64,000 nucleotides of DNA, taken from positions 1-64,000 of the forward strand of contig JAKVBD010000002.1 of assembly GCA_022446985.1 (NCBI GenBank). Reading direction: 5' to 3'. A program made the position numbers and the translations under genes. This stretch comes from Lentisphaerales bacterium (GTDB taxonomy: Bacteria > Verrucomicrobiota > Lentisphaeria > Lentisphaerales > Lentisphaeraceae). Numbering within the stretch: the first letter of the stretch is position 1; each line of letters starts with the position of its first letter. The notes under the pieces are model-generated. The model was not told the DNA's origin. It did not search any database and saw only the letters and a program-made list of their open reading frames with translations. Of the stretch, positions 7,058 to 22,010 are shown piece after piece.

Positions 7058-7060
7058 AGT

Positions 7061-7096
7061 TATTTAAATTATTTAAATTATTTATATTATTTAAAC
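7061..7096. repeat. Four tandem 9-bp repeats upstream of sulfatase
   Basis: Four consecutive 9-mers, TATTTAAAT, TATTTAAAT, TATTTATAT and TATTTAAAC, end 3 bases before the sulfatase start codon. Each carries a self-complementary ATTTAAAT-like core. They occupy the leader or promoter region, so a change in copy number could alter expression. Confidence 0.8.
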
Positions 7097-7149
7097 CACA
7101 ACGCAGATCTTTCCTTAACAGCTCCTTTCAAAAAATTAGTTTCAGGAAG

Positions 7150-9150
7150 TCATCTTGGATCAAACTGAATAGATTCCGGCAAGTGTCTGGATTCCTCTTC
7201 AGGCAGCTGATCTTCATTCGCAATAAGACGATTAATATTCAGCACTAAATTAATTCCACGAACTGACCTCATGGATGAACCTCTGATATCTAAAGTCTTA
7301 GCCGATGTTCCATTGATCTGCCTCATGGAGGCTATTTGACTATTTGCAATATTTAAATGGTTCACCTTGATAAGACGCAGGAAAGACAGCTTCGACGACT
7401 CATTGTTACTGCCTGCAAGAATTTTCAGATTGGGACCGGTCACTTTCAAAATCAAGTTTTCATTATTGTAGTCAAACCTATTTCGACGCCACTCTGGGTT
7501 CCAACATTTAATCAATTCCACTAAGACTTCCGGCCTGACATAAGCCCGTTTATTGAGTCTTAGGTTATAGATAATCATGCGTTCCATAAGACTTTTCCTA
7601 AGCCCATTCCTCAGTGAATTATTCATTTCCTTAAGTAAGGCTAAGAAGCTTTTGCGATTTAAAGCCCCATCGGCATTCAGTTTTTCGTTGGCATACTTTT
7701 TTGCCAAATCTGTCATGCTCTTTCTGTCTGGAATATCCAGTTTCACCACCTCGGAAAATTTCTGATGAATAAAATTCACTTCTCCAATTAACCGGTAAAC
7801 ACCCTTGTGTTTAGTCACTTCGTGATATTTCTTTAAAGCTACAAGTCCCTGCATGCCACTTTCCAAAGGCATTGTATAAAACAGTGGATTTCGTGTTTTG
7901 GCAAGAGCTGTATCGTAAGACTTCTGAAGTAGTTCTTTACTCAACTCAATCTGTTTAGCATTTTGAACTTTATAGAGTTCGAATGATTTTTTTTCATTTT
8001 CACGGGCAATCTCTAAATCTGAATAAGTTCTGGTCAATTCACTCAGTGCCTTTGCTGTTTCCTTATTACTTTCTTTAAGTTTAACCAGAAAAGCTGAAGT
8101 TCCTATGAGGATCATCATTAAGGCGAGTAAAACAACATAGCAGACGACTTTATTCCTCTTGTAGAAAAGTCTTGCTTCTTTGAGGAATCCGGCATTTTCT
8201 GCTGTTGTCGAGTGCCCTGTCAAATACTTATTCACCTCATCTTTTAAGGCCTCTACATTTTGGTAGCGCTCATTCAATTCAAGCGACATGGCTTTGCGCA
8301 CTACTGCATCGAGGCTGGCAGGGATTTCTTTTTTAGGAAAACGATCAATCGGGGAGCGTATCTCGCCATTTATGGTATCGCGAATAACCGTATCCATACC
8401 ACCTTTACCGGGTGCTTTATCTGTTAAGATCGAATATAAAAGAGCGCCTAATGAATAAATATCTGACTGGCAATTCTTCTCCTTGTGAGGCTGACTTTGT
8501 TCTGGCGACATATAACCGGGAGTACCTTTGATTTTCCCTCCGCTTTCACAAAGCTTGTCTATATGTGAACCAAGTCCCCAATCACAAAGTTGCACTTCAC
8601 CAAACTTACCGACCTGTATATTATCTGGTTTTATATCCAAATGAATTACACTTTCAGAGTGAGCATATGCGACGGCATCGCATACCTTAAGGAAAATATC
8701 CAGCAATTTAGTTAAAGGGTATTCTTGTATGTACTGCTTATGTCGTGATGCTCTTTGCTTAAGAATTGTCAGTAGGGAATCACCAACCTTTAACTCCATA
8801 GTAAAGTAAGGGTTAAAGTCTTCATCCTTACCAATTTCATACACAGAAATGATATTCGGGTGTTCTAGTTTAGCAGTTAGATAGGCTTCCTGTAGAAAAT
8901 CTTCGGTGCACTCTGTAGCAATATTCTGGTGCAGCTTTGCCATGGCTATATGACGATTTGTCTTGGAATCGTAAACTTTATAAATGTCTTTCATGCCGCC
9001 TGAGGCGATCAATTGTGAATTCTGAAAGCGTACTTGCTCTTTTTCTTCTGCTTGTGATACCTCAAGCCAGTCGTCTTCATCTGTATCGTCATAAAACTGA
9101 TTCAAATTACTTTTAAGCAAGGAACTCTTCGGGGCATCACTCAAATTCAA
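7150..9150 (-). CDS. Transmembrane Ser/Thr protein kinase, sigma-factor partner
   Basis: A 666-residue Hanks-type kinase. The kinase domain spans about 44-312: ATP lysine K72 (IAMAKLH), helix-C glutamate E88, catalytic loop HLDIKPDN (D172, N177), metal motif DWG at 190-192, activation-segment end GTPGYMSPEQ. The catalytic loop has Leu in place of the usual Arg, so it is a non-RD kinase, and DWG replaces DFG. A membrane helix is at about 335-357. The outside part has a coiled-coil-like stretch and ends in short leucine-rich-like units (LDIRGSSMRSVRGINL). The start overlaps the upstream sigma gene by 14 bases, so the two are translationally coupled. In PVC bacteria such kinases are thought to control the co-encoded ECF sigma factor; here that is inference. 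Confidence 0.85.
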   Translation of the reverse strand: MNLSDAPKSSLLKSNLNQFYDDTDEDDWLEVSQAEEKEQVRFQNSQLIASGGMKDIYKVYDSKTNRHIAMAKLHQNIATECTEDFLQEAYLTAKLEHPNIISVYEIGKDEDFNPYFTMELKVGDSLLTILKQRASRHKQYIQEYPLTKLLDIFLKVCDAVAYAHSESVIHLDIKPDNIQVGKFGEVQLCDWGLGSHIDKLCESGGKIKGTPGYMSPEQSQPHKEKNCQSDIYSLGALLYSILTDKAPGKGGMDTVIRDTINGEIRSPIDRFPKKEIPASLDAVVRKAMSLELNERYQNVEALKDEVNKYLTGHSTTAENAGFLKEARLFYKRNKVVCYVVLLALMMILIGTSAFLVKLKESNKETAKALSELTRTYSDLEIARENEKKSFELYKVQNAKQIELSKELLQKSYDTALAKTRNPLFYTMPLESGMQGLVALKKYHEVTKHKGVYRLIGEVNFIHQKFSEVVKLDIPDRKSMTDLAKKYANEKLNADGALNRKSFLALLKEMNNSLRNGLRKSLMERMIIYNLRLNKRAYVRPEVLVELIKCWNPEWRRNRFDYNNENLILKVTGPNLKILAGSNNESSKLSFLRLIKVNHLNIANSQIASMRQINGTSAKTLDIRGSSMRSVRGINLVLNINRLIANEDQLPEEESRHLPESIQFDPR

Positions 9151-9763
9151 TTTCCTTCTTTAGAATCTGAATCTCTTTTTTAAGACGATTTTTAACTCGG
9201 CTGCGAAGGACAAAAACACTGTCTTCACTCATCTTTAATTCTTGGGCTATTTGTCGAGCACTTATGCCCTCCAGGCTTTTTGTAAAAACTTCCACGGCAT
9301 ATCCCGAAAAAGATTTTGAAACCTTCTCCATTGCCTTAGAAGTCAGATACCCGACCCACTCAGTCGCGATCACTTCTTCAATATCTGATTCTGATATTTT
9401 AAGATAAGCTTCCTCTGTAAGTTCAACGCTCTTGTCCCTGCCCTTTCTCTTGGACTTAGACAGATGATTTAAAATGGTATTTTTAATTAAAACACTTAAC
9501 CAGGTTCTAAATTTGGCTTTTTCTTTCTTGTATTCATAATTTGGCAAACCTCTCCATATTCTAAGAAGGATATCCTGAATAATGTCATCCATATCATTCA
9601 GTGATATCTGCGACTGATGAAGAACCATTCTTATAAAAGCTTCATAGTAACTGACAAAGTCACACCAAGCCGACTGATCGTCTGGATTCTGGGCTCGCTC
9701 AATCAAGGTTAATCTGGTATTCCAGTCTTCCTGCATAGCCTCACCATACTTTACATAGCACAC
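9137..9763 (-). CDS. ECF-type RNA polymerase sigma factor
   Basis: A 208-residue sigma-70 family protein of the extracytoplasmic-function class. Region 2 is seen as FIRMVLHQSQ followed by DMDDIIQDILLRIWRGL and KFRTWLSVLIKNTILNHL. Region 4 is a helix-turn-helix (EGISARQIAQELKMSEDS, then VFVLRSRVKNRLKKEI). The N-terminal TRLTLIERAQNPDDQSAW is characteristic of planctomycete/Lentisphaera sigma factors linked to protein kinases. No anti-sigma gene is adjacent; the next gene is a transmembrane kinase overlapping by 14 bases, probably the signal input. GGAGAG directly before the ATG at 9763 supports that start, although the Met at residue 10 is possible. Confidence 0.85.
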   Translation of the reverse strand: MCYVKYGEAMQEDWNTRLTLIERAQNPDDQSAWCDFVSYYEAFIRMVLHQSQISLNDMDDIIQDILLRIWRGLPNYEYKKEKAKFRTWLSVLIKNTILNHLSKSKRKGRDKSVELTEEAYLKISESDIEEVIATEWVGYLTSKAMEKVSKSFSGYAVEVFTKSLEGISARQIAQELKMSEDSVFVLRSRVKNRLKKEIQILKKEIEFE

Positions 9764-9878
9764 ATTTAACTCTCCTCTCTAAAATAGATTTCCCAGAGAA
9801 GAGAAGTGATTTTATTAACTAGTATATAAAGAAATACGCCGAGTATTACGGTAAATACAAGACTTTAAGGTAAATGCG

Positions 9879-11303
9879 TTACTTCTTCTTAAGCTTTTTG
9901 GCGTCCACTCGATCCTGCCCACTTAGCAAAGTTGCTGTTTGTAAACTGACTGTTGGCGCTTCGTTTTGGGGTAGCATAGCTTTCATTTTTGCCTTTTGAG
10001 AATTGTACTCAGGGTTAGAAGCAAGATTGTGCCACTCATGCTGATCTTTGGCATGATCGTAAAGCTCTTCTGAACCATCGAAGTAATGATTGTAACGCCA
10101 GAACTCTGTTCGCACTGAGTAATTTCCTTTTCCCCAACTTATATATGCAGGCAGCTCCACTGGCTCCTCAGGATCTTTGAGCTGTGGTACCAGACTGCGG
10201 CCATCGACGTATTCTGGTACTTTTAAGCCAGACATATCTGCTAAAGTTTTATAGACGTTTATCAGAGAAATTGCCTGCGTACACTTACGACCTTGAGCGG
10301 CATTTTTATTTCTCAGATCGCGGATAATGAATGGTACTCTTGTGGACTCCTCCCAAAGGGTAAATTTCCGGAACTCCTGTTTTTCGCCCATGTGGTAACC
10401 ATGGTCTGACCAAAGAACGATGATCGTATTATCCGCATATTTACTTTTCTTGAGTTCATCCACAACACGTCCAATGTTATAATCTGCCCAGGCGATACAA
10501 GCAAGATAAGACTTTCGCACTCTTTCCCAGGCCTTATCTTTTTTAAACTGCTTATCGTCTCTTGGGTTACTCAAACGGCCTGCTTCTCCAGTTAAATCAT
10601 CAACATCATTTGCTAAAATCTCTGGAGGTTCAATTCTTTCCGGCAAGGCGTCAAAGAATTGCTTTGGAGCATCAAATGCCAAATGCGGCTTTACGATTCC
10701 AACAGCGAGGAAAAATGGTTTACCGTGCTCCTTATTCAAAATATCTATGCCATAACTGGCAACTTTATAGTCCTGATGATCTTTCAGAGCATTAGTTGTT
10801 GGGCGAAAAGACATCTTAGAAGAATTACCAATTTGATATCCTTCCCCTGATTTAAACTCCTTTTTCACTCCACTAAGTTGAAGATAATCAGTCCACTCTT
10901 CATCAGTTCCATTTTGTCCATGATGAATCTTTCCTGAGCCATAAGTATTGTAACCATTATCCTTAAAAAACTTTGGCAGAGTTGTGTATTTCTTACGCAG
11001 GCCAATGTGTACATCTTTGTGATTATAAAAAGGATAAAGCCCAGAATTAAATGGTTCTATGCCATAGAGAAGAGCATTACGACTTGGTGAACACCCTGGG
11101 GCAGAACAGTGCGCATTTGTAAAGTTCATTCCTTCATTTGCCAACTTATCCATATTTGGTGTCATTGCTTGAGGATGTCCCCCAAGAAATCCAGTCCAGT
11201 CATTCATGTCATCTATAGCAATAAAGAGAATATTCGGCCTTTTCTCAGCCTGAAGGCCAACCACTAATACTGCCGTCACTATAAGAATTATAAATTTTTT
11301 CAT
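9879..11303 (-). CDS. Exported sulfatase, iduronate-2-sulfatase-like
   Basis: A 474-residue sulfatase with a signal peptide (MKKFIILIVTAVLVVGLQA). Metal-site aspartates are D31 and D32 (FIAIDDMNDW), the formylglycine motif is C71-S-P-S-R75, and VLWSDHGYHMGEK is the second metal block. It differs clearly from the sulfatase at 5561 (CSPSR versus CAPSR, different internal loops), so the two probably remove different sulfates from one glycan. It is transcribed alone; the next gene downstream, the sigma factor, has its own leader. A degenerate half of the 18-bp palindrome described for this region lies at 11329-11346, 26 bases upstream, but its geometry differs from the five good copies. Confidence 0.9.
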   Translation of the reverse strand: MKKFIILIVTAVLVVGLQAEKRPNILFIAIDDMNDWTGFLGGHPQAMTPNMDKLANEGMNFTNAHCSAPGCSPSRNALLYGIEPFNSGLYPFYNHKDVHIGLRKKYTTLPKFFKDNGYNTYGSGKIHHGQNGTDEEWTDYLQLSGVKKEFKSGEGYQIGNSSKMSFRPTTNALKDHQDYKVASYGIDILNKEHGKPFFLAVGIVKPHLAFDAPKQFFDALPERIEPPEILANDVDDLTGEAGRLSNPRDDKQFKKDKAWERVRKSYLACIAWADYNIGRVVDELKKSKYADNTIIVLWSDHGYHMGEKQEFRKFTLWEESTRVPFIIRDLRNKNAAQGRKCTQAISLINVYKTLADMSGLKVPEYVDGRSLVPQLKDPEEPVELPAYISWGKGNYSVRTEFWRYNHYFDGSEELYDHAKDQHEWHNLASNPEYNSQKAKMKAMLPQNEAPTVSLQTATLLSGQDRVDAKKLKKK

Positions 11304-11418
11304 AAAAGATCCTTAAATAAACATTTAGTTTACGCTATTTACGAAAACAGAATTTAAAACGGGATATTAACAATAAAAAATTGGCTAAAATTCGGGCCGT
11401 AACCCCATAAATAGGTTT

Positions 11419-12120
11419 CTACTGAAAATCAAAATAAATATTCCCAACATTACTCCGCCAATCAGCAACTGTCGTAGCAGAAACATGACCGTCTCCATAG
11501 ACTGCATTTGCCTTTTTTCCAGGATTATGAACGGTCCAGATCTTTCCCCAGTTTGTGTCCCGGAAAGAAAAATGATTTCTGTACGAATTATTTTGTTCTA
11601 AATGGTAACGACTGACTGTATCTCCAATCAAAATGAATTCTGAGGGCTCTGGTAAAAGAAGTAAATTTATAGTGCAATTCATCTCAGTTCCAGGCCCACC
11701 CGGCCTGTCTGTCAGCAACCAGTCTCTATCTGCCCAAACAGTATTTTTAAACATTCCAAAAACATTAAAGCCATAAGTTTGCTGATAATAAATCCATTTA
11801 TTATTATAGGGCCCTGGACCGATATCATCTTTGGGACAGAAAAACGATTCATTTGGATCTTCCACATAACCATTATCATACAAAGGTGCCACCCAGCCCT
11901 TCACGGGATCGTTTTCCTTCACCATTATTTTAGAATCATTCTGATTGGTAAAGATGTTCATTTGAATATAGGACTGACGCATATTCGATATGCATAACGC
12001 TCCTATAGCTTTTTCCCTTGATTGCTTGATTGATGGCAAAAGTAAGCTACTCAATATACCAATCACAGCAATAACTACTAACATTTCAATAAGAGTAAAT
12101 TTTTTCATATGCATACACAT
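11419..12120 (-). CDS. Prepilin-like secreted protein with H-X9-DG tail
   Basis: A 233-residue protein with a type IV prepilin signal (MKKFTLIEML, cleaved before Phe) and the helix VVIAVIGILSSLLLP. The C-terminal part has CPKDD, then NAVYGDGHVSA, the DG end of the prepilin-type processing-associated H-X9-DG domain. Such proteins are numerous in Lentisphaera and Planctomycetes; they are minor pilin-like or pseudopilin-like, and their substrate or role is unknown. Translation may begin at 12120 or, more typically for a prepilin, at the Met codon at 12108. Neither has a clear ribosome binding site. A TATAAT at 12134-12129 would make the mRNA almost leaderless. One copy of the regional palindrome lies 56 bases upstream. 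Confidence 0.85.
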   Translation of the reverse strand: MCMHMKKFTLIEMLVVIAVIGILSSLLLPSIKQSREKAIGALCISNMRQSYIQMNIFTNQNDSKIMVKENDPVKGWVAPLYDNGYVEDPNESFFCPKDDIGPGPYNNKWIYYQQTYGFNVFGMFKNTVWADRDWLLTDRPGGPGTEMNCTINLLLLPEPSEFILIGDTVSRYHLEQNNSYRNHFSFRDTNWGKIWTVHNPGKKANAVYGDGHVSATTVADWRSNVGNIYFDFQ

Positions 12121-12175
12121 TTGTTTATATTATATTAAATAAAGCACTAAGCGATCTATTTCATAAACATTAAGT

Positions 12176-12193
12176 TTTACGATTTATCGTAAA
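12176..12193 (-). promoter_or_regulatory. Operator-like palindrome, copy 1 (prepilin-like gene)
   Basis: TTTACGATTTATCGTAAA has 8-bp perfect arms and a 2-bp centre. It lies between the stop of the DUF1592 gene and the start of the prepilin-like gene, 56 bases upstream of the latter. A TTTATT hexamer sits at the same distance (41.5 bp from palindrome centre) as the -10-like hexamers at copies 2, 4 and 5; a better TATAAT lies 9 bp further on. Confidence 0.7.
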
Positions 12194-12209
12194 TTCAGTT
12201 ACCTGAGCC

Positions 12210-14627
12210 CTAATGATTTGCAAGCATAGATGAACTGGCAACCAGCTTGACCAGATCACGCATTTTGTAATTGTTTTTTCGCCATTTCACTTCAAGTCTT
12301 CGCACTTCTGCTTTATCTGCAAAATTTAAATATCGTCCTGTTGCAAACATGAGCATTTTTTCGAGTACACAGTGTGCAACTTGATCAATATTTTGCTCAA
12401 AAAAGTTCACCAGTTCATCAGCATTTCTAATCTTACTATCCCTATAAACCGCGAAAGTATCAATAGGTTTTTTATTTGGATACTTTTTGCGAAAAGCACC
12501 TACAGGATCAAAGGCTTCCAAGGTAAAACCAAGTGGATCGATTTTCTGGTGACATGAATTACAGGTCTCAACATTTCTATGCTTAGAAAGTTGCTCCTTA
12601 ATAGTCGTTGCACCTCGTATATCCGGTTCTATTGCCGGAACATCCGGTGGGGGTGGAGGCGGTTCAATCCCCAGAATATTCTCTAAAATCCAAACGCCTC
12701 TAACAATAGGTGAAGTTTCAACGCCATTTGAAGTCAAAGTTAAAATGCTGCCATGACCGATAATCCCTCTTCTTGGAGAATATTCTGGTAGAGTTACTTT
12801 AGTAAAAACACCTTCTTTAAGTCCTTTTGTACTTATGCCATAATGGATGGCCAACGATCGATCAACCCAGGTCGAGTTTCCGGCTATAACTTCCGTTAAT
12901 GTCAAGTTTTTTTCAAAAGCTTCAGTCAGTAATAACTGACTTTCTTTTTTCATTTTAGATTCAAGGTAATTGCGATGATACAATTTAAACTTTTTGTCCG
13001 GGGGCATCATTCCAAGTCTATGAAGTTGTAGCCACTGATCTGCAAAGTGGCTTCCAAGATACTCTGCATTGTCTTTCGATAATTGCAGATCCACTAAAGT
13101 AGAGATTTCACTGCCTCTTTTAAGTTCTTGAAGTAAATGTTCGTCTGCAGGTTCTCCTTTCAGAAAGTAACTCAAGCGATTAGCATACTGTCTGACGCCT
13201 AAAGTTTTATTATTTGACTTCGCTTCCACCATGTACAAAAATTCTGGATGAGTTAACAGATAACGATAAGTGTTTGCCAAGGCTTTATTCATATCTCCAG
13301 ACTTCTTATGGAGAGCAGCAGTCCTACTGACCAAGGCATCCAATTCACCTTTACGTAGTGGACGGCGCAAGATTTTTTCAGCGGCTTTTGAAAGTGTGGA
13401 GTTTAGATTAGCACTACCAAAGAATTCCTTGTATACCGGCATAGGCCACTGTGGATAAAAAGGTCCTCTCAATTTTGCATCCCAGATACGTATTCTTGGA
13501 CCTTGGTAAGCGTCAGTCTCCACTATTCCGCTTCTTTTTCTGTCACGGCGGGACAATTTTTTGTAGCTGTCAGGCAGAAGTTCAGGGTAATACTTGCCCA
13601 GTAAAGCTGCCGCGTTAAAATTTGAGTTTGCAGGAGGACCATTTAAAAAGAGCATCGATGGTGATTCTCCCTTATTCAGCCATATTCTCAGCTTAAATGT
13701 CTGTCGTTGATTATCCTCTAATTCAATTAACTTTAAGGTTTCTCCGGCATCCTGACAATTACCATCACTAGTGTCTTCATATACTTCTGCGCCAATCTGC
13801 AGAACAAATTTATCTTCCATACGCATCGGAGAATAAACCCATCTCGGAAACTTATGAATCCGGCCATGTGCTTCAACATCGATTATGAAGTCATAGTAGC
13901 CATCGGCATGAACGCCTTCTTTCAAATATTTTGACATGGCTTTCGAAAGTTTTGGAGAACAATTAAAAAGCGACACACAGTCCCTTTCTTTTTCCATTCT
14001 TATACTGGTTCGGCCATTTTTGGTACGGAAAGACTTTGGTGGCATCTTAACAGTGCGAACTTTAGGTTTTTCGCCTCCTTGTGCTAAAGCATGGATGACA
14101 ATATCATTAGCTGCTTTAAGAGCACTGTTCATGTAAATCGGGGAGTTTATCTGAGCTTCTCCGATGTTTTTAAAACCGTGATTTATCTCATCTTTGGGCA
14201 AATGCCTGGCTGGAGAAAATCGTTTTGATTCGAACTTAAAAATGCTGTGCGTTGTTTGGTCATATTCATATTGGGTCATCTTACGCATCGTTACTGTAGA
14301 TGCATGGCCGTTAAACTTCTGCTCAGCTTTTGCCAGTTCTTGAGTCAACCAGTCCACTGCACCAAGAAGCTCCTCATTTGAAGGCTGCTTTTTCTTTTTC
14401 GGGGGCATCTCTCCAAGGTTTAAAACATCGAGTACTTCCTGCCAACGCTCAGCTATGTCCAAATCAGCTATATCTGGATTTAAGTCATCAAATCGCCTAT
14501 CACCTTTTTGAATGTCTTCATCATGACAATCAGTGCAATAACGCTCAACAAATTTTTGGATATTGAAAGAGGGCTCTGCGGCGATCAAAGAAAAGTTAAT
14601 TGCGAAGATAATAAAAAAAACTTTCAT
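12210..14627 (-). CDS. Exported DUF1592 planctomycete-type cytochrome protein
   Basis: The frame opens at 14651, but the Met at 14627 is preferred. It has GAAGGG 8 bases upstream and begins the signal peptide MKVFFIIFAINFSLIAA. It starts 4 bases after the DUF1552 stop, giving 805 residues. Heme site 1 is CTDCH near the N-terminus (PSCyt1 module, followed by GEMPPKKKKQP). Heme site 2 is ETCNSCHQKIDPLGFTLEAFD near the C-terminus (DUF1588). Between them lie DUF1587, a carbohydrate-binding-like beta domain and the DUF1592 helix region (RLSYFLKGEPADEHLL). The family is exported, redox-linked and nearly always encoded beside a DUF1552 protein, as here. The reaction is not known. Confidence 0.9.
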   Translation of the reverse strand: MKVFFIIFAINFSLIAAEPSFNIQKFVERYCTDCHDEDIQKGDRRFDDLNPDIADLDIAERWQEVLDVLNLGEMPPKKKKQPSNEELLGAVDWLTQELAKAEQKFNGHASTVTMRKMTQYEYDQTTHSIFKFESKRFSPARHLPKDEINHGFKNIGEAQINSPIYMNSALKAANDIVIHALAQGGEKPKVRTVKMPPKSFRTKNGRTSIRMEKERDCVSLFNCSPKLSKAMSKYLKEGVHADGYYDFIIDVEAHGRIHKFPRWVYSPMRMEDKFVLQIGAEVYEDTSDGNCQDAGETLKLIELEDNQRQTFKLRIWLNKGESPSMLFLNGPPANSNFNAAALLGKYYPELLPDSYKKLSRRDRKRSGIVETDAYQGPRIRIWDAKLRGPFYPQWPMPVYKEFFGSANLNSTLSKAAEKILRRPLRKGELDALVSRTAALHKKSGDMNKALANTYRYLLTHPEFLYMVEAKSNNKTLGVRQYANRLSYFLKGEPADEHLLQELKRGSEISTLVDLQLSKDNAEYLGSHFADQWLQLHRLGMMPPDKKFKLYHRNYLESKMKKESQLLLTEAFEKNLTLTEVIAGNSTWVDRSLAIHYGISTKGLKEGVFTKVTLPEYSPRRGIIGHGSILTLTSNGVETSPIVRGVWILENILGIEPPPPPPDVPAIEPDIRGATTIKEQLSKHRNVETCNSCHQKIDPLGFTLEAFDPVGAFRKKYPNKKPIDTFAVYRDSKIRNADELVNFFEQNIDQVAHCVLEKMLMFATGRYLNFADKAEVRRLEVKWRKNNYKMRDLVKLVASSSMLANH

Positions 14628-14631
14628 CCAA

Positions 14632-15861
14632 TTACCCTTCGACAAGTTCATTTATATTACCATCGCTGGTACCAAACTTATCTATTTCCAGGCCATGGCT
14701 TTGAAGAAGCGTTGTGTAAAGATTACAAAGTGGTCTTTGTCCTTTGGCCTGAATAAACTTTCCTCCTAGAATGTTGCCCCCCATTACAACTTGAGGTAGG
14801 TTCTTGGAGGAATGTGAAGAGGCATTTCCAAGACCACTGCCAAAAATAATTTGGGTCGAGGAGAACAGGCTTTGGCCATCTGTCTGCTTCGTTTGCTTCA
14901 TCTTCTCAACAAATGCCGCCAACTCTTCCATGAAAAAATTTTCAATAGACAGTAACTGCTTTAACTTTTCCGGATTCTTACCATGGTGAGATAAATCATG
15001 GTAACCTTTTGTGATACCAGGCAATTCGTTGATTCTGATCGTTTGCCCAAGGCTGAAAGTTATGAACCTGCTTGAGTCTGTCTGAACCGCCAGGTGAATT
15101 AAGTCGTAAAGCACCGGCATAAGTTCATTGATAGCCTTAGATACCGAAGGCAGCTTATATCTCGTTTTAGGCTTTGGAACATCAAACCATCTTTGCTGTT
15201 GAACGATCTTCTTCTCCAACTCTCTTACTGATGTATGGTACTGTTCAAAATGTTCGCTGTCTGTTTTATCTAATTTTGGTTTGAGTTTGCGAAAGCTTTC
15301 CAAATGTTCATCCAGAATAGAACGGTTTTCAGCAAGGAGCTTCTTATGTTGCTTTTTAGCGTTTAGATCATCTTTCAAAAACATTTTCTGGAAAATCAGT
15401 TTAGGGCTGTCGATGGTCGGAAGAGGCACTGCATTTCTAGTCCAGGACATTTGCCCACCAACACCAATTTCCAGAGATGGATATCTCGTTTTATAGCCAA
15501 GCTCTTCTACCAGCTTTTGATCGACAGTAATATTCCCTTCCTGAAAGCTGCTAGCTTTATCCTTTGTAACACCGCTTAACCAGGCATGCGCACCGCCATG
15601 TGAACCTTTCATACCTACGTGGTTGAATCCATTGATAAACGACAAATCTTCTTTGTGCTTTTTCAACGGCTTAAGAAGTGGAGAAAGTTCAAAGCTGCTT
15701 GCCGTCGATTTGGGGATAAAGCTGTCAGGATGCATTCCCAAATCTGTTCCGATACAAATTAATCTTAGAGGAGATTTCGAATTGTTCCCCAAAGAAGCCA
15801 TGGTTGGTAAAGCAAGTGAAGATGCAAGAGCTGTTAAAAAAGTACGTCTGGTTGATATCAT
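14632..15861 (-). CDS. Exported DUF1552 protein (Tat signal)
   Basis: The frame is open from 15957, but I choose the Met at 15861. It begins with a twin-arginine signal (ISTRRTFLTALASSLALP), and the palindrome and -10-like element at 15893-15948 lie within the longer version. The protein is then about 409 residues. Family-typical segments include GSHGGAHAWLSG, LSPLLKPLKKHKEDLSFINGFNH, YHDLSHHG and GSGLGNASSHSSKNLP, a layout like the DUF1501/alkaline-phosphatase-like fold. The Tat signal implies export in folded form. The DUF1592 cytochrome gene follows after 4 bases, so they form an operon. These two-gene units are frequent in PVC genomes but have no established substrate. Confidence 0.85.
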   Translation of the reverse strand: MISTRRTFLTALASSLALPTMASLGNNSKSPLRLICIGTDLGMHPDSFIPKSTASSFELSPLLKPLKKHKEDLSFINGFNHVGMKGSHGGAHAWLSGVTKDKASSFQEGNITVDQKLVEELGYKTRYPSLEIGVGGQMSWTRNAVPLPTIDSPKLIFQKMFLKDDLNAKKQHKKLLAENRSILDEHLESFRKLKPKLDKTDSEHFEQYHTSVRELEKKIVQQQRWFDVPKPKTRYKLPSVSKAINELMPVLYDLIHLAVQTDSSRFITFSLGQTIRINELPGITKGYHDLSHHGKNPEKLKQLLSIENFFMEELAAFVEKMKQTKQTDGQSLFSSTQIIFGSGLGNASSHSSKNLPQVVMGGNILGGKFIQAKGQRPLCNLYTTLLQSHGLEIDKFGTSDGNINELVEG

Positions 15862-15930
15862 TTTCTGAGACCCGGTTTTCCAATTTTTAAGAAAAATACT
15901 CAAAGGTCCAGGCCCCAACCAGAGGTAATC

Positions 15931-15948
15931 TTTACGATATTCCGTAAA
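15931..15948 (-). promoter_or_regulatory. Operator-like palindrome, copy 2 (DUF1552-DUF1592 operon)
   Basis: TTTACG-ATATTC-CGTAAA has 6-bp arms and 18 bp in total. It lies 69 bases before the preferred DUF1552 start codon. A -10-like TATTTT occupies 15898-15893, with its 5' edge 41.5 bp from the palindrome centre. The same spacing recurs at copies 4 and 5. Confidence 0.75.
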
Positions 15949-15989
15949 CCCATTCATAGTTGGCCGTAAATATCACAGCTAAAATGAAG

Positions 15990-16023
15990 TAAAAAAAGGC
16001 CGGCTCGATTTCTCAGGCCGGCC
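15990..16023 (-). terminator. Orphan minus-strand terminator
   Basis: Arms AGGCCGGC (15997-16004) and GCCGGCCT (16016-16023) are followed on the minus strand by seven T residues. No minus-strand gene lies upstream; the only open sequence is a short in-frame tail reading VKFTKQVFSEV and two stops at 16045-16080. It either insulates the DUF1552 promoter or is left from a lost gene. Confidence 0.75.
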
Positions 16024-16093
16024 TCAAGTGTGTGTTGTGTGAATTATTACACTTCACTGAACACCTGCTTGGTAAATTTAACGAGGAGTAAAA

Positions 16094-16111
16094 ATTACGA
16101 TATATCGTAAA
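16094..16111 (+). promoter_or_regulatory. Operator-like palindrome, copy 3 (thioredoxin-like pseudogene)
   Basis: ATTACG-ATATAT-CGTAAA. The inner 16 bases (TTACGATATATCGTAA) are a perfect palindrome. It lies 122 bases before the start of the decayed 16234 gene. A TAAAAA hexamer at 16142-16147 lies 39.5 bp from the centre, a slightly different spacing from the other copies. Confidence 0.65.
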
Positions 16112-16233
16112 GGTCCAAAAAGTTCTGAATATACTTTCCAATAAAAATAAAATTCTCATACAATATTCAGTAATGACCTACATTGTTTAGAATAAGAATT
16201 AATAAAAATTTATTTAAGATGAGAGGAGGTTTT

Positions 16234-17281
16234 ATGTTCACAAAAGTAATCACCTGTTTATTAGTTCTTAGCTTCACAAGCGAACTACTCTCCAAAAAAC
16301 ATGGAGGCAAAAGTTCGAAAGGTGGTGGCATGCCAGATGCATAAGTCCCTACCAGAGCCGGCATGATTGGCAACTTGCTCTGAAGGAAGCTAAACGCAGC
16401 AAGCGCCCAATTCTCTTTATGGCAGATACTTCTCAATGTGGTGGTGTTCCTGGAGTATTTTGACCGGGGTATACCAATTTTGCAAGCCGTGCTCTTGTTG
16501 ATAAAAAAGTTATCGAAGACTCCCGAGATTTCGTCTGTGTACGTATCGAGACATACGAGAGTGAAGAAAATCAAAAACCAGTTCGAAAATTACCGAATGG
16601 CAGACTCGCAAATTCTGCAGGGGTCATTTTTGCTCCGGATGGGAAAAAGAAACTAACCAGCTCGGGTCGTGGTATTGATGAAAGTGACTTAAGAAATTTG
16701 AGCGCGTATGCGAAAAAGTACCCTGCTAAAGCTGATACTTCCAAAGCACTTATACCGGATTTCAAATACCTTAAAATGGGTTTGGCAACAGCCTCAGCAG
16801 AACAACGTTTAATCCTGGTTTTTGCAAGGAGTGACAATCAAGCGACTGCCGTGCAAGGAGTATTAGCACCAGTAGTCTGGGATGAGTCTATACAAGGTAA
16901 ATTCCATATTGATCTTGAGTCAAATATCAACAAATACCGAGATGTCATTAAAAACTTAAGAGTAAACAATAATGGTTCTATATTGATCATAGAGCCAGAT
17001 GAATATGGCATTGAAAACAATTTCCTTTGAACCAAAGCTCACAGACATTTATTCGGGATATTGCTGCATGCTATGACAATTATATGCGAACTATGAAAGC
17101 CAAGTCTTATCCTCAGCATGTTAGAGAAGGTAAAAAGAAGGAGCATACCGCGATTTACCAATGCCTCTTGGAGAGGAATCTAGATGCCGTTGTTAAAGTC
17201 GATGACAATAATCAAAAACGATTTGGTTCGGCTAAGGACAAAGCCAAAAAGTCCGGCAAAATCATTAGAATTGATGATTAG
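16234..17281 (+). pseudogene. Decayed secreted thioredoxin-fold protein
   Basis: An excellent ribosome binding site (GAGAGGAGG) precedes an ATG at 16234 and a signal peptide (MFTKVITCLLVLSFTSELLS), but the frame stops at 16344. A second frame, overlapping the stop, continues as DWQLALKEAKRSKRPILFMA and DTSQCGG, a thioredoxin-like fold start with one cysteine. It meets an in-frame TGA at 16461-16463 and then runs on to 17030. A third frame (17027-17281) completes the tail ending KKSGKIIRIDD. Two frameshifts and one nonsense codon mark it as dead, though each change is small and the decay looks recent. Its promoter region still carries the palindrome. Selenocysteine at the TGA is unlikely because the frameshifts would remain. 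Confidence 0.75.
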
Positions 17282-17286
17282 AAAAA

Positions 17287-17323
17287 ACTGCGGTTCATAG
17301 AAAGTATAAACCGCAGTCTTCTT
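17287..17323 (+). terminator. Terminator after the thioredoxin-like pseudogene
   Basis: Arms ACTGCGGTT (17287-17295) and AACCGCAGT (17309-17317), then CTTCTT. It begins 6 bases after the pseudogene's last stop. Confidence 0.75.
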
Positions 17324-17369
17324 ACTCACCTACCTCATAAAGTAATTTTCTAAAAAAGAAAAAAGTGTA

Positions 17370-18002
17370 TTATTCACTAATTTCCCAAATGCGAATAAGG
17401 TCTATTAGAAGTTTTCCTTTTGGAATAGCTTTCATCGCGATTTTTAGGCGATCACCAGTTTCTATATTTGCCCCCTCATAGACTTCTGTTTTACCATTAA
17501 TTGACAGGCCTATTTTGCCTTTTTTAATTTCGATTGTTACATTCAGCCATTCATTCAAAGGCAGCATATTCCCATGCCGCTTATTATTAATTTTTCTTTT
17601 TTCTAAAGGCTTATCTTCAGAACTAAAGAGAACCATATCCTCTTTGAATCTAAAGTGATTGCGATGACCGCCGCCGACATCCAGCCATGGATTTTTAGGA
17701 GTGTAACTACCACCAGTCATTTTAATGCGCATATTACAAACAGATTCTTGAGGAATCTTATTGCAATGAATAACCGGTCTGGCACCATTCTTTTTATCGT
17801 TATTAACGACAGTTAAAATGCTATTCTTTGTACTGGTCGTACTTCCTGATCTCGCTTCAAAAACTTTTGGAAGTTTATCTCCGTTAAACTCTTCACTGAA
17901 ATACAACTTACCCTTATCGAGAAAAAGAGACGGAAAAGCCTTAACTCCGTGAGATTGACATGAAGTCAATAAAACGATCAGTGCCAGTACAAAAATTTTC
18001 AT
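17370..18002 (-). CDS. Lipoprotein with concanavalin-like (LamG/DUF1080-type) fold
   Basis: A 210-residue protein with a lipoprotein signal (LIVLLTSCQ, Cys15 lipidated). The body has beta-sandwich features of LamG or 3-keto-disaccharide hydrolase-like domains: LYFSEEFNGDKLPKVFEA at the start, HRNHFRFKEDMVLF, LPLNEWLNVTIEIKKGKIGL and LIDLIRIWEISE at the end. Planctomycete relatives bind or modify sugars; no catalytic residues can be assigned here. AAAGGTGG precedes the ATG. It has its own palindrome and -10 element, and lies directly downstream of the two-component operon in the same direction. Membrane-anchored glycan binding is the most likely role. Confidence 0.65.
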   Translation of the reverse strand: MKIFVLALIVLLTSCQSHGVKAFPSLFLDKGKLYFSEEFNGDKLPKVFEARSGSTTSTKNSILTVVNNDKKNGARPVIHCNKIPQESVCNMRIKMTGGSYTPKNPWLDVGGGHRNHFRFKEDMVLFSSEDKPLEKRKINNKRHGNMLPLNEWLNVTIEIKKGKIGLSINGKTEVYEGANIETGDRLKIAMKAIPKGKLLIDLIRIWEISE

Positions 18003-18067
18003 AAACCACCTTTTAGTTATCTGTGCTAACTATTACTCCGTCACATACCAGGAAGCGTCATGGAATT

Positions 18068-18085
18068 TTTACGATATACCGTAAT
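18068..18085 (-). promoter_or_regulatory. Operator-like palindrome, copy 4 (lipoprotein gene)
   Basis: TTTACG-ATATAC-CGTAAT, 65 bases upstream of the lipoprotein ATG and 13 bases past the response regulator stop. A -10-like TAATAG at 18035-18030 begins 41.5 bp from the palindrome centre, the same as at copies 2 and 5. Confidence 0.75.
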
Positions 18086-18098
18086 TATAGGGGAATTA

Positions 18099-18749
18099 TT
18101 AACGCAACAAACCGGACTTAATCGCCTTACTTACTGCTGCCGTTATATTATTAACTTCGAGCTTCTTACAGATTTTCCGGCAATTAAAGTCAACTGTGTG
18201 CTTCGGTATTTCGAGCTTTTCTGCCACCTCTTTTTGAGCGTAGCCATCTGCGATCAATTCCAAAATACTCAGTTCTTTGGTAGATAATTCAACGTTCAGA
18301 ACTACCGGTTGTTGTTTATTCAATGAAGCAACCAGATGCTTTGCAACATCTGGGTTTAAAGGTGAGCCTCCCTTTATCGCATCTTCCATAGCTTTGGCAA
18401 TTTCTTTAGAAGGAGACCGCTTTAATAGGTAACCTGAAGCACCTGCATTTAGGGCTTTTATAACTTTCGGTCGATCATCAAATACTGTTAAAATCAAAAT
18501 GTGAGTTTCTGTTGAAGCCGCTTTTATCTTCTTAATAGCATCTAAACCACCAATACCTGGAAGCCCAAGATCCAAAAGTAAAATATCCGGTTTTTCTCCG
18601 CCACCAGCCTCTAATAGATAAATGGCACTTTCACACTCTCCAAAGTGGTCATCACAAACTAAATTGGCTTCACGCTCAAGATTGCGTTTAAGTAACTTTC
18701 GGTACTTTTCATTATCTTCTATGATCCAAAAATTTATGGTGTCATCCAT
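18099..18749 (-). CDS. NarL/LuxR-family response regulator
   Basis: A 216-residue two-domain regulator. The receiver has the acidic pair E11-D12, phosphoacceptor D60 (DILLLDLGLPG) and K110. The C-terminal GerE-type helix-turn-helix runs from LSTKELSILELIADGYAQKE to AVSKAIKSGLL. It overlaps the sensor kinase gene by 8 bases and is its cognate partner. NarL-family dimers bind inverted repeats, so it is the natural candidate to bind the five TTTACGAT-type palindromes found at 12176-20717, one of which lies in front of its own operon. That link is inference from position and symmetry. Confidence 0.9.
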   Translation of the reverse strand: MDDTINFWIIEDNEKYRKLLKRNLEREANLVCDDHFGECESAIYLLEAGGGEKPDILLLDLGLPGIGGLDAIKKIKAASTETHILILTVFDDRPKVIKALNAGASGYLLKRSPSKEIAKAMEDAIKGGSPLNPDVAKHLVASLNKQQPVVLNVELSTKELSILELIADGYAQKEVAEKLEIPKHTVDFNCRKICKKLEVNNITAAVSKAIKSGLLR

Positions 18750-20628
18750 TCTTCTTTTGACTCCTGATTTTTAGCTTGAGCTTATTAACATTGTCGTCAG
18801 AATGACCGATTTGAAAATCCCAGCCGAGTTTATCGGCTCTTGAGTAAAGTGAAGGCGCCGCTTTTTTTAACGGCACTGAACCATTGTCTTCGATATCCAT
18901 AAAAAATATTTTGCTGTCAAAGCCCATACAAATATATGTTGAAGTAGCTTTACTGTATTTTTGTAAATTATTCAGGGATTCTTTATAAAAGAGAATAAAA
19001 TTTCGAATGAGATCTATGGGCCAACTCTCAATATGTTCAAAATTTTTAAATTGTATATTAAATTCAATATTCCTTAAGAGCCTTTCAGTAATTTCAGCTA
19101 AGTGTTTTTTGAACTCTTCTGGACCTTTCCTATTTGGATCCAGCATCCAGACTATGTCGTGCATAAACGCTGAGGTCTCATTTGTAATATCCATAATTTC
19201 ACGGGCATTTTCCTTGAGTTCCTCAGGGTCAATATCATCCTGATTGAGGTACTCTCCTATAAGATTTATACAGGCTAGGTTACTGCCAATTTCATCATGT
19301 AAATCGCTGGCAATTTCACGGCGCAACTTTTGTTGATGCAAATGACTGTCGTAACGACTTTTGACAATAACTCCAAGAGCTATCAATAATAATGCAGAGA
19401 TGATATAGGCAATGCTTTTGTATAGGGATAGAAAATAGGCTTCGCTTTTATATTTGCGTTTATTCAAGAGTGCCAGTTCTACCTCCAATTGATTGCGCTT
19501 AACTATGCCATTCAACCAATCTTGCAGGGGAATAATTTCGCCATAGCGTAATTTGCCATCATGCATAGCAGAAATACGATCTAAATTTATACTTTTAATT
19601 TTCTTTATTGAGCTCGATACCATAGCATCTTGAGTGATACTCTTGTGCCAATCTACCAGCTCAATTTCCGACATATTGCAATCATTCTTCTGGTTATAAA
19701 CTGCCAAAAATTCAACCCGGAACTTTTGAGATCTGACCTCTGGGAATTGAATTGCTAAAGGATTATCTCCAATAGTGATTACAGAGCTGCGCTTTTTTTC
19801 ATAAAACTTTTCCCAGGAATTCAACTTTTTGTTAAAAGAGTAAAATCTAATCTTACCAGGTAAATTATCCGGCCGACTGTGATTTGGTAACCAGGAACTG
19901 TAAAGGCGAATTTCATCTAAACGTCTTTCATTTTTAAAAACAAAATCAAAGCTTAATGATTTTTGCTGAGTCAGTAAACTTCCAATCCACAAAGACTGAG
20001 ACTCTTGAGCTCTGTGAGTTAAGATAGGCATCCCTAAAGACGATAGCCCGTCAACCAGGCACTCAGGCCCCTCTTTGTTTTTTTCACAATCTGTGGATAT
20101 GCTTTTATTCAGCGCTACATTTCGTCCATTACTGAAAACAAAGACTTCACCAAGTGCGTAGTAGTGTTGAACTAATAATTCAAGTAAATCTATTTTGAGG
20201 TAACGCACTTGTTCTTCATCCAAGTCGATTAGAATAGGCAAAGAGCTGTCAATATTTGACTCATCGCGAATGATTTCTTTGATCTCCTTAAAGTGGGAGT
20301 CGTCATTTTGAGAGACTGAGACTTTTAATTTTTTGGGAAAGCAATGAGCTTTGTTGCCATCCGGTGCCGGTTCAAGAGCAGGAACTATAACAATTTGATC
20401 TACGGCAAAAGCCTCACCAAGATCAATTGTCAGGTAACGTTTTGCTTTATCGTAGTGTAACCACTCACTTTTAAAGCCCATGGGCGCCCCTGATTCGTGC
20501 AAGGATGCTTTAGGTAGTTTGGTTAACCGAACCTGAATATCACTTATCTTTTGATTGAGGTCTTCTGCTGACGTCAGACAACACATCAACATAAGAGTAC
20601 TTATAAAGATAAATTGAGTGATTTTCAT
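18742..20628 (-). CDS. Sensor histidine kinase (HisKA_3) with discoidin-like outer domains
   Basis: A 628-residue membrane sensor. Residues 1-21 are a signal peptide. Residues about 30-170 and 170-330 each resemble an F5/8 type C (discoidin) beta-sandwich: YLTIDLGEAFAVDQIVIVPA and later NVALNKSISTDCEKN with LVDGLSS, LDEIRLYSSW and KFRVEFLAVY. One membrane helix spans about 403-423. The HisKA_3 dimerisation domain carries His444 (REIASDLHDEIGSNL). The ATPase N-box is NNLQKYSKA and the G1 box DIEDNGS; the catalytic domain is short. Discoidin folds typically bind sugars, so the ligand may be a glycan. It heads a two-gene operon with the LuxR regulator (8-base overlap). A palindrome and TATAAT lie just upstream, so it is probably autoregulated. 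Confidence 0.85.
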   Translation of the reverse strand: MKITQFIFISTLMLMCCLTSAEDLNQKISDIQVRLTKLPKASLHESGAPMGFKSEWLHYDKAKRYLTIDLGEAFAVDQIVIVPALEPAPDGNKAHCFPKKLKVSVSQNDDSHFKEIKEIIRDESNIDSSLPILIDLDEEQVRYLKIDLLELLVQHYYALGEVFVFSNGRNVALNKSISTDCEKNKEGPECLVDGLSSLGMPILTHRAQESQSLWIGSLLTQQKSLSFDFVFKNERRLDEIRLYSSWLPNHSRPDNLPGKIRFYSFNKKLNSWEKFYEKKRSSVITIGDNPLAIQFPEVRSQKFRVEFLAVYNQKNDCNMSEIELVDWHKSITQDAMVSSSIKKIKSINLDRISAMHDGKLRYGEIIPLQDWLNGIVKRNQLEVELALLNKRKYKSEAYFLSLYKSIAYIISALLLIALGVIVKSRYDSHLHQQKLRREIASDLHDEIGSNLACINLIGEYLNQDDIDPEELKENAREIMDITNETSAFMHDIVWMLDPNRKGPEEFKKHLAEITERLLRNIEFNIQFKNFEHIESWPIDLIRNFILFYKESLNNLQKYSKATSTYICMGFDSKIFFMDIEDNGSVPLKKAAPSLYSRADKLGWDFQIGHSDDNVNKLKLKIRSQKKNG

Positions 20629-20699
20629 AGGAGCTTAAGAGAACCTCTGCCAGTTTGGCAAATTATACTAAAGCTAAAGAGAAAATTAAAGAAAGATAA

Positions 20700-20717
20700 T
20701 TTACGATAAAACGTAAA
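20700..20717 (-). promoter_or_regulatory. Operator-like palindrome, copy 5 (sensor kinase operon)
   Basis: TTTACG-ATAAAA-CGTAAA, 71 bases upstream of the kinase start codon. A perfect -10 (TATAAT on the minus strand, 20667-20662) begins 41.5 bp from the palindrome centre. That puts the site at about -53 from the expected transcription start, a usual place for an activator. GGAG lies just before the ATG. Confidence 0.8.
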
Positions 20718-20778
20718 CAAGAAAAACGGATATATGAAGGAATTGTTTAGGCCTGTAAGAAATATAGAATGCAGACAC

Positions 20779-20812
20779 AAAAAAACGCCAATGAATAAAA
20801 TCACTGACGTTT
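20779..20812 (-). terminator. Terminator of the small cysteine-protein gene
   Basis: On the minus strand, arms 20812-20801 and 20794-20783 (AAACGTCAGTGA pairing with TCATTGGCGTTT, with wobbles) are followed by a run of seven T residues. Confidence 0.8.
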
Positions 20813-20833
20813 AAAAATTTCGCTAAAAAAGAA

Positions 20834-21007
20834 TTACTTAACGTCGCAAGTAGTTTCTTCTTTTACGTTACCAGCTTCGATCTCGTCGATACATTTCTGG
20901 TAAACATCGTTAACAGGGCAGCCACATTTGTGGTCGCCATTTGTTGCGTGTAATCTAGCTTGTTCCATGTGCCACTGGGCAACTTTAAGGTGTTGATCAA
21001 CGTTCAT
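20834..21007 (-). CDS. Small four-cysteine protein, 57 residues, unknown function
   Basis: The translation starts MNVDQHLKVAQWHMEQARLH, with AAAGGAT about 9 bases before the ATG, and ends EETTCDVK. It has no signal peptide. HKCGCPVNDVYQKC holds three cysteines and a fourth is near the end; together with histidines they could bind a metal. It has its own terminator (20779-20812), and a near-perfect palindrome lies 28 bases upstream, so it is a single-gene unit with regulation of its own. I do not recognise a family; a cytosolic metal- or redox-linked role is only a guess. Confidence 0.75.
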   Translation of the reverse strand: MNVDQHLKVAQWHMEQARLHATNGDHKCGCPVNDVYQKCIDEIEAGNVKEETTCDVK

Positions 21008-21034
21008 TGTATAATCCTTTTGTGTTTTACGTAC

Positions 21035-21051
21035 GCAGGGTTTAACCCTGC
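21035..21051 (-). promoter_or_regulatory. Palindrome GCAGGGTT-T-AACCCTGC upstream of the small cysteine protein
   Basis: Arms of 8 bp are separated by one base, too tight for an RNA hairpin of full length, so a DNA-binding site is more likely. It lies 28-44 bases upstream of the 21007 start codon. Confidence 0.55.
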
Positions 21052-21176
21052 CTTACTCTATACCCGCTACAGTAAGTTCAAGAAACATTTATCCAATAAT
21101 TTAGGATAATTCTAAATTTTGACTGAATTTTTAGCTCATTTCCTGTAAAACTTCACTATCTGCATGGCCTGAATAT

Positions 21177-21200
21177 AAAAAAGCCCGCAAAAGCGGGCTT
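21177..21200 (-). terminator. Terminator of the FKBP gene
   Basis: Arms AAGCCCGC and GCGGGCTT flank a four-base loop (21181-21200). A short T run follows on the minus strand, 17 bases past the stop. Confidence 0.85.
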
Positions 21201-21216
21201 AAACTAAAGCGAACTG

Positions 21217-21909
21217 TTATTTCTGGATAGAAATCAATTCAATATCGAAAACCAAAGTTGCGTTTGGTGGGATTCTTGGTGGAGCACCGCGCTCGCCATA
21301 AGCCAACGCACCTGGGATTTTAAATCTGTATTTTGAACCAATAGTCATTAGCTGAACTCCTTCAGTCCAACCTTTAATAACCTGATTAAGACCAAATGTT
21401 GCCGGCTGGCCACGATCTACAGAACTGTCAAACTTTGAACCATCTGTCAAGTAACCTGTATAGTGTACTGTCACTTTATCAGTAGCTTTTGGCTTGTCGC
21501 CGGTACCTTCTTTGATGACTTTGTACTCAAGGCCAGACTCAGTCTTAGTCAGGTTTTTTGCTTCCAAAAAGCTTTGAAGTTCTTTTCGGTTTTTTGCTTT
21601 TTGTTCATTCTGAATGACCTCAAAAGCTGCTTTCATAGCCATCTGATCAATTGGGTTTTTACCGCCCTTAACTGCATCTTGGACAGCCTTAAGAACCACA
21701 TCGATGTCAACGTATTCTTTCTGAGAAGAAAATTGACCACCGATTTGATAGCCATAAAAAGTACTCACAGTTTTCACAGCATCTTCTAGACTTGGAGCTG
21801 CAACGGCTTTAACTGTGGCTTCTGCTTTTGCAGCGTCCTGAGCTGATAAAGTCAGTGATGCACCAAACAGGCTACATGCTAGAGCCTTCTTAAAATTGGT
21901 CATTTTCAT
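21217..21909 (-). CDS. FKBP-type peptidyl-prolyl isomerase, exported
   Basis: The frame opens at 21969, but the Met at 21909 fits best. It has AAGGA upstream and begins a signal peptide ([20 protein letters not shown], cleaved after LSA), giving 230 residues. The first half is the helical FKBP N-terminal dimerisation domain ([20 protein letters not shown]). The second half is the FKBP catalytic domain: [58 protein letters not shown]. The layout matches Mip/FkpA-like periplasmic foldases. It has its own terminator. Confidence 0.9.
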
Positions 21910-22010
21910 TCTCGAATCCTTAATTTTTAGAAAAGTCGTAATATTTTTAAATAAAAGAGACTGCAGCAATTATTTAAAACAAGAACAAAACAGACTTTTT
22001 TCGGCCTATC

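Follow-up and report, generated by a model that had tools for sequence, protein, structure and literature searches.

The DesK/DesR, VraS/VraR and NarX/NarL systems each combine a HisKA_3 kinase with a NarL-type regulator and an inverted-repeat operator. The same arrangement, with a predicted operator of similar size, was found in the window analyzed here, a stretch of 64,000 nucleotides (positions 1 to 64,000, forward strand, of contig JAKVBD010000002.1, assembly GCA_022446985.1) from a Lentisphaerales bacterium of the Verrucomicrobiota, in which a sensor histidine kinase (HK) and a response regulator (RR) are located in a gene cluster marked by five palindromes. The locus differs from those three systems in its tandem discoidin/CBM32-like sensor and its planctomycete-cytochrome targets. 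Relative to the NarL 7-2-7 site, the TAC arms of the palindrome core, TTACG-N6-CGTAA, are two base pairs closer. Periplasmic glycan sensing coupled to gene clusters, namely the polysaccharide utilisation loci, is also familiar from the hybrid two-component systems of Bacteroides, in which kinase, receiver and an AraC-type helix-turn-helix are joined in one protein; here, HK and RR are separate, the helix-turn-helix is of the GerE (NarL) type and the sensor is discoidin-like, and the pair does not belong to the hybrid class. In Pontiella agarivorans, HK (PF07730) and RR genes occur near sulfatases and glycoside hydrolases (PMC10880615), which represents the same kinase family and context, while the accessible portion of that paper names no sensor domain, operator, recognition code or cytochrome operon. 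For freshwater Verrucomicrobia, PSCyt/PSD gene pairs were described near sulfatases, with nothing known of their function according to the accessible text (PMC5615132), and in Rhodopirellula baltica an extracytoplasmic function (ECF) factor was proposed as regulator of one PSD1 gene (PMC2754498). No two-component regulator is named for PSCyt/PSD genes in the accessible parts of the latter two papers, and no earlier description of the discoidin sensor, the operator, the helix covariation or the link between the pair and a PSCyt operon was found in the open-licence literature.

Judged from its sequence, the cluster is very probably a dedicated, autoregulated and glycan-responsive two-component regulon, in which the RR encoded at 18099 binds the palindrome. 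The five predicted operators, listed without strand, are located where a preliminary description of this DNA had placed them. Exact copies of TTTACGATNNNNCGTAAA on the forward strand are found at 12176..12193 (TTTACGATTTATCGTAAA), upstream of a prepilin-like gene, at 15931..15948 (TTTACGATATTCCGTAAA), upstream of a DUF1552/DUF1592 operon whose likely start, 15861, is 78.5 bp away from the palindrome centre, and at 20700..20717 (TTTACGATAAAACGTAAA), upstream of the HK-RR operon with a TATAAT 41.5 bp from the centre. Copies with one mismatch are located at 16094..16111 (ATTACGATATATCGTAAA), upstream of a broken thioredoxin-like frame, and at 18068..18085 (TTTACGATATACCGTAAT), between the RR stop and the start of a lipoprotein gene. 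Each of the five units has one palindrome upstream, at a measured 55, 69, 122, 65 and 71 bases before the start, which is in line with the 56-122 bases given previously. As also claimed, no further position in the window has intact TTACG arms on both sides. The genome-wide scan proposed in that description was run and yielded five exact copies of TTACG-N6-CGTAA in 6,344,669 bp, none of them outside 12177-20716, and two copies of the reversed-pattern control; under a uniform model, approximately 6 would be expected genome-wide and 0.008 in the 8.5 kb cluster span. When up to three mismatches were allowed for the whole palindrome, 22 matches were observed in the window versus 7.9 ± 3.4 in shuffles, none of 100 shuffles reaching 22.

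The longer form TTTACG-N6-CGTAAA, at no more than one mismatch, is found at 19 places in the genome, the five of the cluster and 14 others (control, 36). Among the latter, 11 were inspected, seven being inside open reading frames (ORFs) of at least 80 aa and four outside ORFs. One such place, C90:7659 (L048), follows a CBM9-domain gene and precedes, by approximately 21 bp, a sigma-54 activator containing a GAF domain, and another, C12:12873, precedes a 312-aa ORF without a Pfam match; neither keeps both TTACG arms intact. Of the 63 DUF1552 places in this 6.3 Mb genome, only that of the cluster carries the exact palindrome, which thus marks one such cluster among many. A foreign origin of the contig was considered. 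The GC content is 0.396 for the window and 0.386 for the cluster, the latter marginally below the range of 0.387-0.441 measured in 20 stretches elsewhere in the genome, and composition thus gives no sign of foreign DNA; yet the HK has no full-length homologue among the relatives examined, as described below.

The HK (18742..20628, minus strand) and the RR (18099..18749, minus strand) overlap by 8 bases. A signal peptide and a membrane helix were read from the HK sequence, the HisKA_3 domain was recovered by Pfam (E 2.3e-7), and the motifs DLHDEIG (residues 442-448, containing the His), KESLNNL and DIEDNG are present; for the HATPase domain, no Pfam match was obtained at 0.001. The discoidin-like sensor anticipated in the preliminary description was borne out by Pfam (F5_F8_type_C, E 1.2e-7, residues 55-150), which sees the first of two discoidin/CBM32-like sandwiches, while both appear in an AlphaFold2 model built with 11 sequences (mean pLDDT 78.7). 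In Foldseek searches with this model, DesK was the best match for the kinase part, and the sensor part matched neuropilin b1b2 (2qqi, E 3.8e-7) and the tandem CBM32 pair of ZmpB (7jnf, E 4.5e-7); TM-scores, calculated over a chain of several domains, were low. The predicted fold assigns the HK to kinases of the DesK type, with a sensor part made of two discoidin/CBM32-like domains; the putative periplasmic portion spans approximately residues 24-345. The RR contains Response_reg (E 4.3e-20) and GerE (E 5.7e-13) domains, its best sequence matches in the PDB being VraR (5hev, residues 34-215) and NarL (1a04, residues 16-204), and its predicted recognition helix, HTVDFNCRK, presents D187, F188 and R191. 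The domains of both kinase and regulator assign the pair to the HisKA_3/NarL-type two-component systems.

No full-length HK homologue was found in 58 relatives, the sole match (G047) covering the kinase part only. In a phylum-wide search, 75 of 387 genomes gave matches (its own included), many over most of the HK length, and an RR was located beside the HK in all of the first 40 loci fetched. These 40 and a further 80 named loci were compared, from which L115, L128, L129 and L147 (repeats of L155, L187, L185 and L210) and L130 were dropped before counting. L130, dropped in error, shares no stretch with L230 and contains two pairs with other helices and no TACG-N6-CGTA; its inclusion would raise the regulators to 114 and those without the helix described below to 100. 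Planctomycetota contain few members: among 294 genomes, four gave matches at E <= 1e-45, and three of these had been found before. On sequence similarity, the pair is assigned to a broad HK-RR family of Verrucomicrobiota, rare in Planctomycetota, which the preliminary description had not foreseen.

Across this family, and across phyla, the recognition helix and the predicted operator covary. The helix positions compared are those matching the DNA-contacting residues K188, V189 and K192 of NarL. The combination D-[Y/F]-x-x-R is present in 14 of 112 regulators, namely one clade of 11 in the tree of 112 (SH-aLRT 100; site at 10 of the 11 loci), L155, L156 and the window regulator (D187-F188-R191). 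A matching palindrome is found at 13 of these 14 loci, with one arm mismatch in L119 and L172, and before the HK of L155 and L156 the site reads CTACG-N6-CGTAG. Named carriers among these loci are Rhodopirellula rubra CECT 8075 (L215) and Chthoniobacter flavus Ellin428 (L172). Exact TTACG-N6-CGTAA occurs in 15 copies in the D-[Y/F]-x-x-R loci and in none in the approximately 1.67 Mb of the remaining loci, being absent at the loci of all 98 regulators with other helices. When 5-mer dyads with 15 spacers were ranked blindly over 171 upstream segments taken from 115 loci, without counting those of the window, TTACG-N6 was joint second with five loci, tied with TAAAA-N13 and CCCCG-N6 and behind ATTTT-N1 with seven; 60 permuted half-sites averaged 0.1 loci at exact match. 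At no more than one mismatch, TTACG-N6 was found in upstream segments of seven loci, with GTTCA near at six, and all seven loci have D-[YF]-x-x-R, the sites being upstream of HK genes or of PSCyt1-DUF1549-DUF1553-type genes. An excess over shuffles was observed for the six-base spacer (80 vs 49.8 ± 5.5) and the four-base spacer (75 vs 49.5 ± 5.5). In L116, L119 and L121, the RR is followed by a DUF1549/DUF1553-type gene (identified by Pfam in L116 and by phmmer in L119 and L121) with a TTACG-N6-CGTAA-like site at its start, and then by a DUF1501-type gene. The predicted operator is also present at loci with a different cytochrome operon, another aspect not previously foreseen.

Further loci were then available for comparison. 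Among seven new D-Y-x-x-R loci, five have the exact site, one (L282) has it with one mismatch and one (L279) has none, and the palindrome was found in none of seven new loci with other helices (L287, L288, L289, L290, L292, L293 and L296), those of L288 and L293 being D-T-x-x-R and D-N-x-x-R. Left out of these counts were L295, a 100-base fragment, and six repeats of earlier loci, of which L276 and L281 carry the palindrome and L285, L286, L291 and L294 do not. Within 30 short loci of the Pontiella order, L297 repeats L115, whose HK-promoter site is not covered by the short stretch. The remaining 29, which include loci seen before, have other helices or no helix match (L303), with TACG-N6-CGTA in 1 of 29. 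L211 is the only other D-F-x-x-R regulator, and five TACG-N6-CGTA sites surround its HK-RR pair: three at 38-76 bases before beta-helix, sugar-isomerase-like and GFO/IDH oxidoreductase genes, one within a TonB receptor gene, 56 bases past its listed start, and the last in a predicted ORF. The covariation in 112 regulators and in the new loci supports the proposal that the neighbouring NarL-type regulator controls the palindrome-bearing genes, probably including its own operon. The local regulon originally suggested is supported as well.

Several observations weigh against this assignment. L208 has a helix of the D-[Y/F]-x-x-R class and no palindrome. Loci with other helices contain seven matches to the shorter TACG-N6-CGTA, of which that in L187 is located 68 bp upstream of a gene. 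The window regulator stands apart in the tree on a long branch (1.26), and its relation to the D-Y-x-x-R clade is uncertain, so that the shared helix and site may be ancient or may have arisen by convergence; either case points to recognition. Six of the seven held-out regulators with the helix share approximately 90% identity with L121, and the remaining one resembles L116 closely. The new loci are therefore not independent, and they test the upkeep of the site rather than its independent origin. In 12 other genomes, 27 exact sites were counted versus 62 for the reversed control, so that position alone, and not number, marks the site there; 15 of the 27 are at the starts of HK, DUF1549/DUF1553 or DUF1501-type genes and the other 12 are not. 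G102 possesses an intact pair and no exact site, the site of its L119 locus having a mismatch. Promoter spacing varies both between sites and between species. Finally, in G478 (L331, 5256-5969), a gene resembling a different response regulator, with what we read as a LytTR-like tail, is located just before a DUF1549 operon displaced from the HK-RR pair.

Taken together, the following course of events is proposed. A periplasmic glycan or glycan fragment would be sensed by the kinase (18742-20628) through its two discoidin/CBM32-like domains, upon which the kinase would autophosphorylate at the HisKA_3 histidine and phosphorylate the NarL-type regulator (18099-18749). The latter may then bind, as a dimer, the 8-2-8 palindrome with its TTACG-N6-CGTAA core through the D-F-x-x-R recognition helix. 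Five units would be controlled in this way: HK-RR itself, the lipoprotein gene, the broken thioredoxin-like gene, the DUF1552/DUF1592 operon and the prepilin-like gene. Upon encounter with the glycan, phosphorylated dimers on the palindromes would recruit polymerase to all five.

The direction of control is the weakest step of this mechanism. It had been claimed that a -10-like hexamer stands 41.5 bp from the palindrome centre at three sites, placing the operator near -53. This offset is indeed the best-scoring of 59, but it was matched by 226 of 5000 random rotations; a complete TATAAT is present at this distance in the HK site alone, the other two hexamers matching at 4/6 and 3/6 positions, and the full TATAAT of the prepilin site is approximately 50.5 bp from the centre. 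The five sites share no single promoter layout, and a common position at -53 is weakly supported. A spacing of 31.5 bp, noted by eye in nine DUF1549 promoters, was rejected as not significant, the best offset being 47.5 bp, with a score reached by 819 of 5000 rotations. The regulator might instead repress its targets and itself, the palindrome blocking the promoters until a signal relieves it. The HK-promoter palindrome of L155 and L156 abuts a TATAAT/TTTAAT-like hexamer, which suggests repression there. In the window, however, the two full TATAAT hexamers, at approximately 41.5 bp (HK) and 50.5 bp (prepilin), place the site upstream of the promoter, as is usual for activators, and NarL-type regulators often act as activators. 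Repression is therefore considered unlikely, and activation is favoured from these predicted promoter positions.

A second alternative is that the palindrome is bound by a regulator encoded elsewhere, HK-RR being merely one of its targets. The pair is itself preceded by a site, as such a target would be. Moreover, a PSCyt operon away from HK-RR keeps the palindrome in three other genomes, at 33 kb in G422 and on another contig in G485 and G478, so that a factor acting in trans is possible; of the two sites in G478, one falls within a DUF1501-type frame, 50 bases past its listed start, and the second precedes the DUF1549 gene, where the different kind of response regulator described above is located. 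Nevertheless, the motif tracks the helix residues of this RR across 112 regulators, and the exact copies in the window genome all surround its gene. In G404, only an 85-residue stretch of the kinase (sensor part) was found before an intact regulator of 89.6% identity (L279, 5069-5967), and the genome contains no exact palindrome, so that loss of the kinase coincides with absence of the sites. A regulator encoded elsewhere is accordingly rated as improbable, well below repression. That the palindromes are merely a repeat element, such as a terminator or mobile repeat, is barely credible: although the copies are palindromic and clustered, and those at 12176 and 18068 are also just behind stop codons (of the DUF1592 gene and the RR), no T-run follows them, all five are upstream of starts, no exact copy exists elsewhere in the genome, spacers and flanks vary among copies, Rfam gave nothing at gathering thresholds in 11000-22000, and in other phyla the arms are conserved and the spacer is not.

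For regulation by the RR at 18099, the nature of the signal is indicated by gene context. The best HK homologue is in a Pontiellaceae locus (L115/L155), behind whose RR genes for GH106 and GH78 rhamnosidases are located, and the contexts of this locus and of L211 favour a glycan. Neighbouring genes were counted in 114 loci, the window being set aside, by phmmer with 14 query proteins and a radius of 7 kb for RR and cytochrome-type genes. An RR was found within that distance of the HK in 108 loci and a PSCyt, DUF1552 or DUF1501-type gene in 34; a sulfatase was present in 21, and one or more genes of the PSCyt/DUF1552/DUF1501, sulfatase or rhamnosidase types in 54. A glycan signal is supported by this context, the reading of a sugar by the sensor itself being weakly indicated.

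A wider hypothesis is advanced tentatively, with somewhat less than even confidence. Verrucomicrobiota and a few Planctomycetota may use an expanded family of two-component systems with discoidin/CBM32 sensors to switch clusters of planctomycete-cytochrome, sulfatase and glycoside-hydrolase genes in response to specific glycans. Every paralogue clade would have a different helix and a private palindromic operator, of which TTACG would be that read by D-[Y/F]-x-x-R. Were each operator private to its clade, operator scanning could pair each orphan cytochrome operon with its sensor and substrate. Planctomycete-specific cytochrome genes and their partners are numerous, as the DUF1552 count in this genome illustrates, and their function is called unknown in the accessible text of PMC5615132. 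For one such gene set, a candidate regulator, DNA site and signal class are now provided, with backing from distant loci, by which the inducer and the regulon become testable, and D-[Y/F]-x-x-R with TTACG would represent a first predicted entry in a recognition code for a large regulator family.

Operators for other helix classes were also sought. CGCAC-N4-GTGCG, seemingly specific to D-T-x-x-R (10/24), has no copy in those loci within 200 bp before a listed start and was rejected as coding sequence, because its copies sit near the HK-RR junction. GTTCC-N6, considered for D-K-x-x-R, was rejected as resting on near-identical orthologues, and CCCGA-N4 is a candidate dyad for D-E-x-x-R. A perfect palindrome, TCGCAC-GTTC-GTGCGA, precedes genes at L191 (3020) and L199 (12526), planctomycete HK-RR loci with the helix H-[T/A]-x-x-R, and is possibly the own operator of that class.

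Regarding the genes of the cluster, the DUF1552 (HXXSHH) protein (14632..15861, minus strand; Pfam E 5.3e-70) has a listed start at 15957, which would overlap the palindrome, and 15861 is therefore likelier. Its gene overlaps that of a PSCyt1-DUF1587-DUF1592-DUF1588-DUF1585 planctomycete cytochrome (12210..14651, minus strand, by Pfam), so that PSCyt1 and PSD domains stand beside a DUF1552 partner gene, as in planctomycete cytochrome operons. Next on the minus strand is the prepilin-like exported protein (11419..12120; N_methyl E 8.8e-4, just under its cut-off). The exported lipoprotein (17370..18002, minus strand), whose signal was read from the sequence, has no Pfam family at 0.001 and at most a very weak resemblance to Alginate_lyase2 (E 0.071) and 3keto-disac_hyd (E 0.14), both below cut-offs. 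Divergent from the DUF1552 gene is the broken, weakly thioredoxin-like gene (16234..17281, plus strand, ATG at 16234), followed by three-frame translation through frame changes and an in-frame TGA. The thioredoxin label given previously is weak (Thioredoxin_7, E 0.11, below cut-off). Selenocysteine at the TGA, which follows GVPGVF, was considered; no homologue was found among 38 relatives and frame changes are present too, and the frame was treated as a broken gene or an error of the draft sequence.

Adjoining the cluster, and without its palindrome, is a stretch (5561-11303) in which two sulfatases flank a serine/threonine kinase (7150-9150) and an ECF-like sigma-70 region 2 protein (9137-9763). 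A second short prepilin-like frame, related to the prepilin of the cluster (phmmer E 2e-12), is located at 5109-5411.

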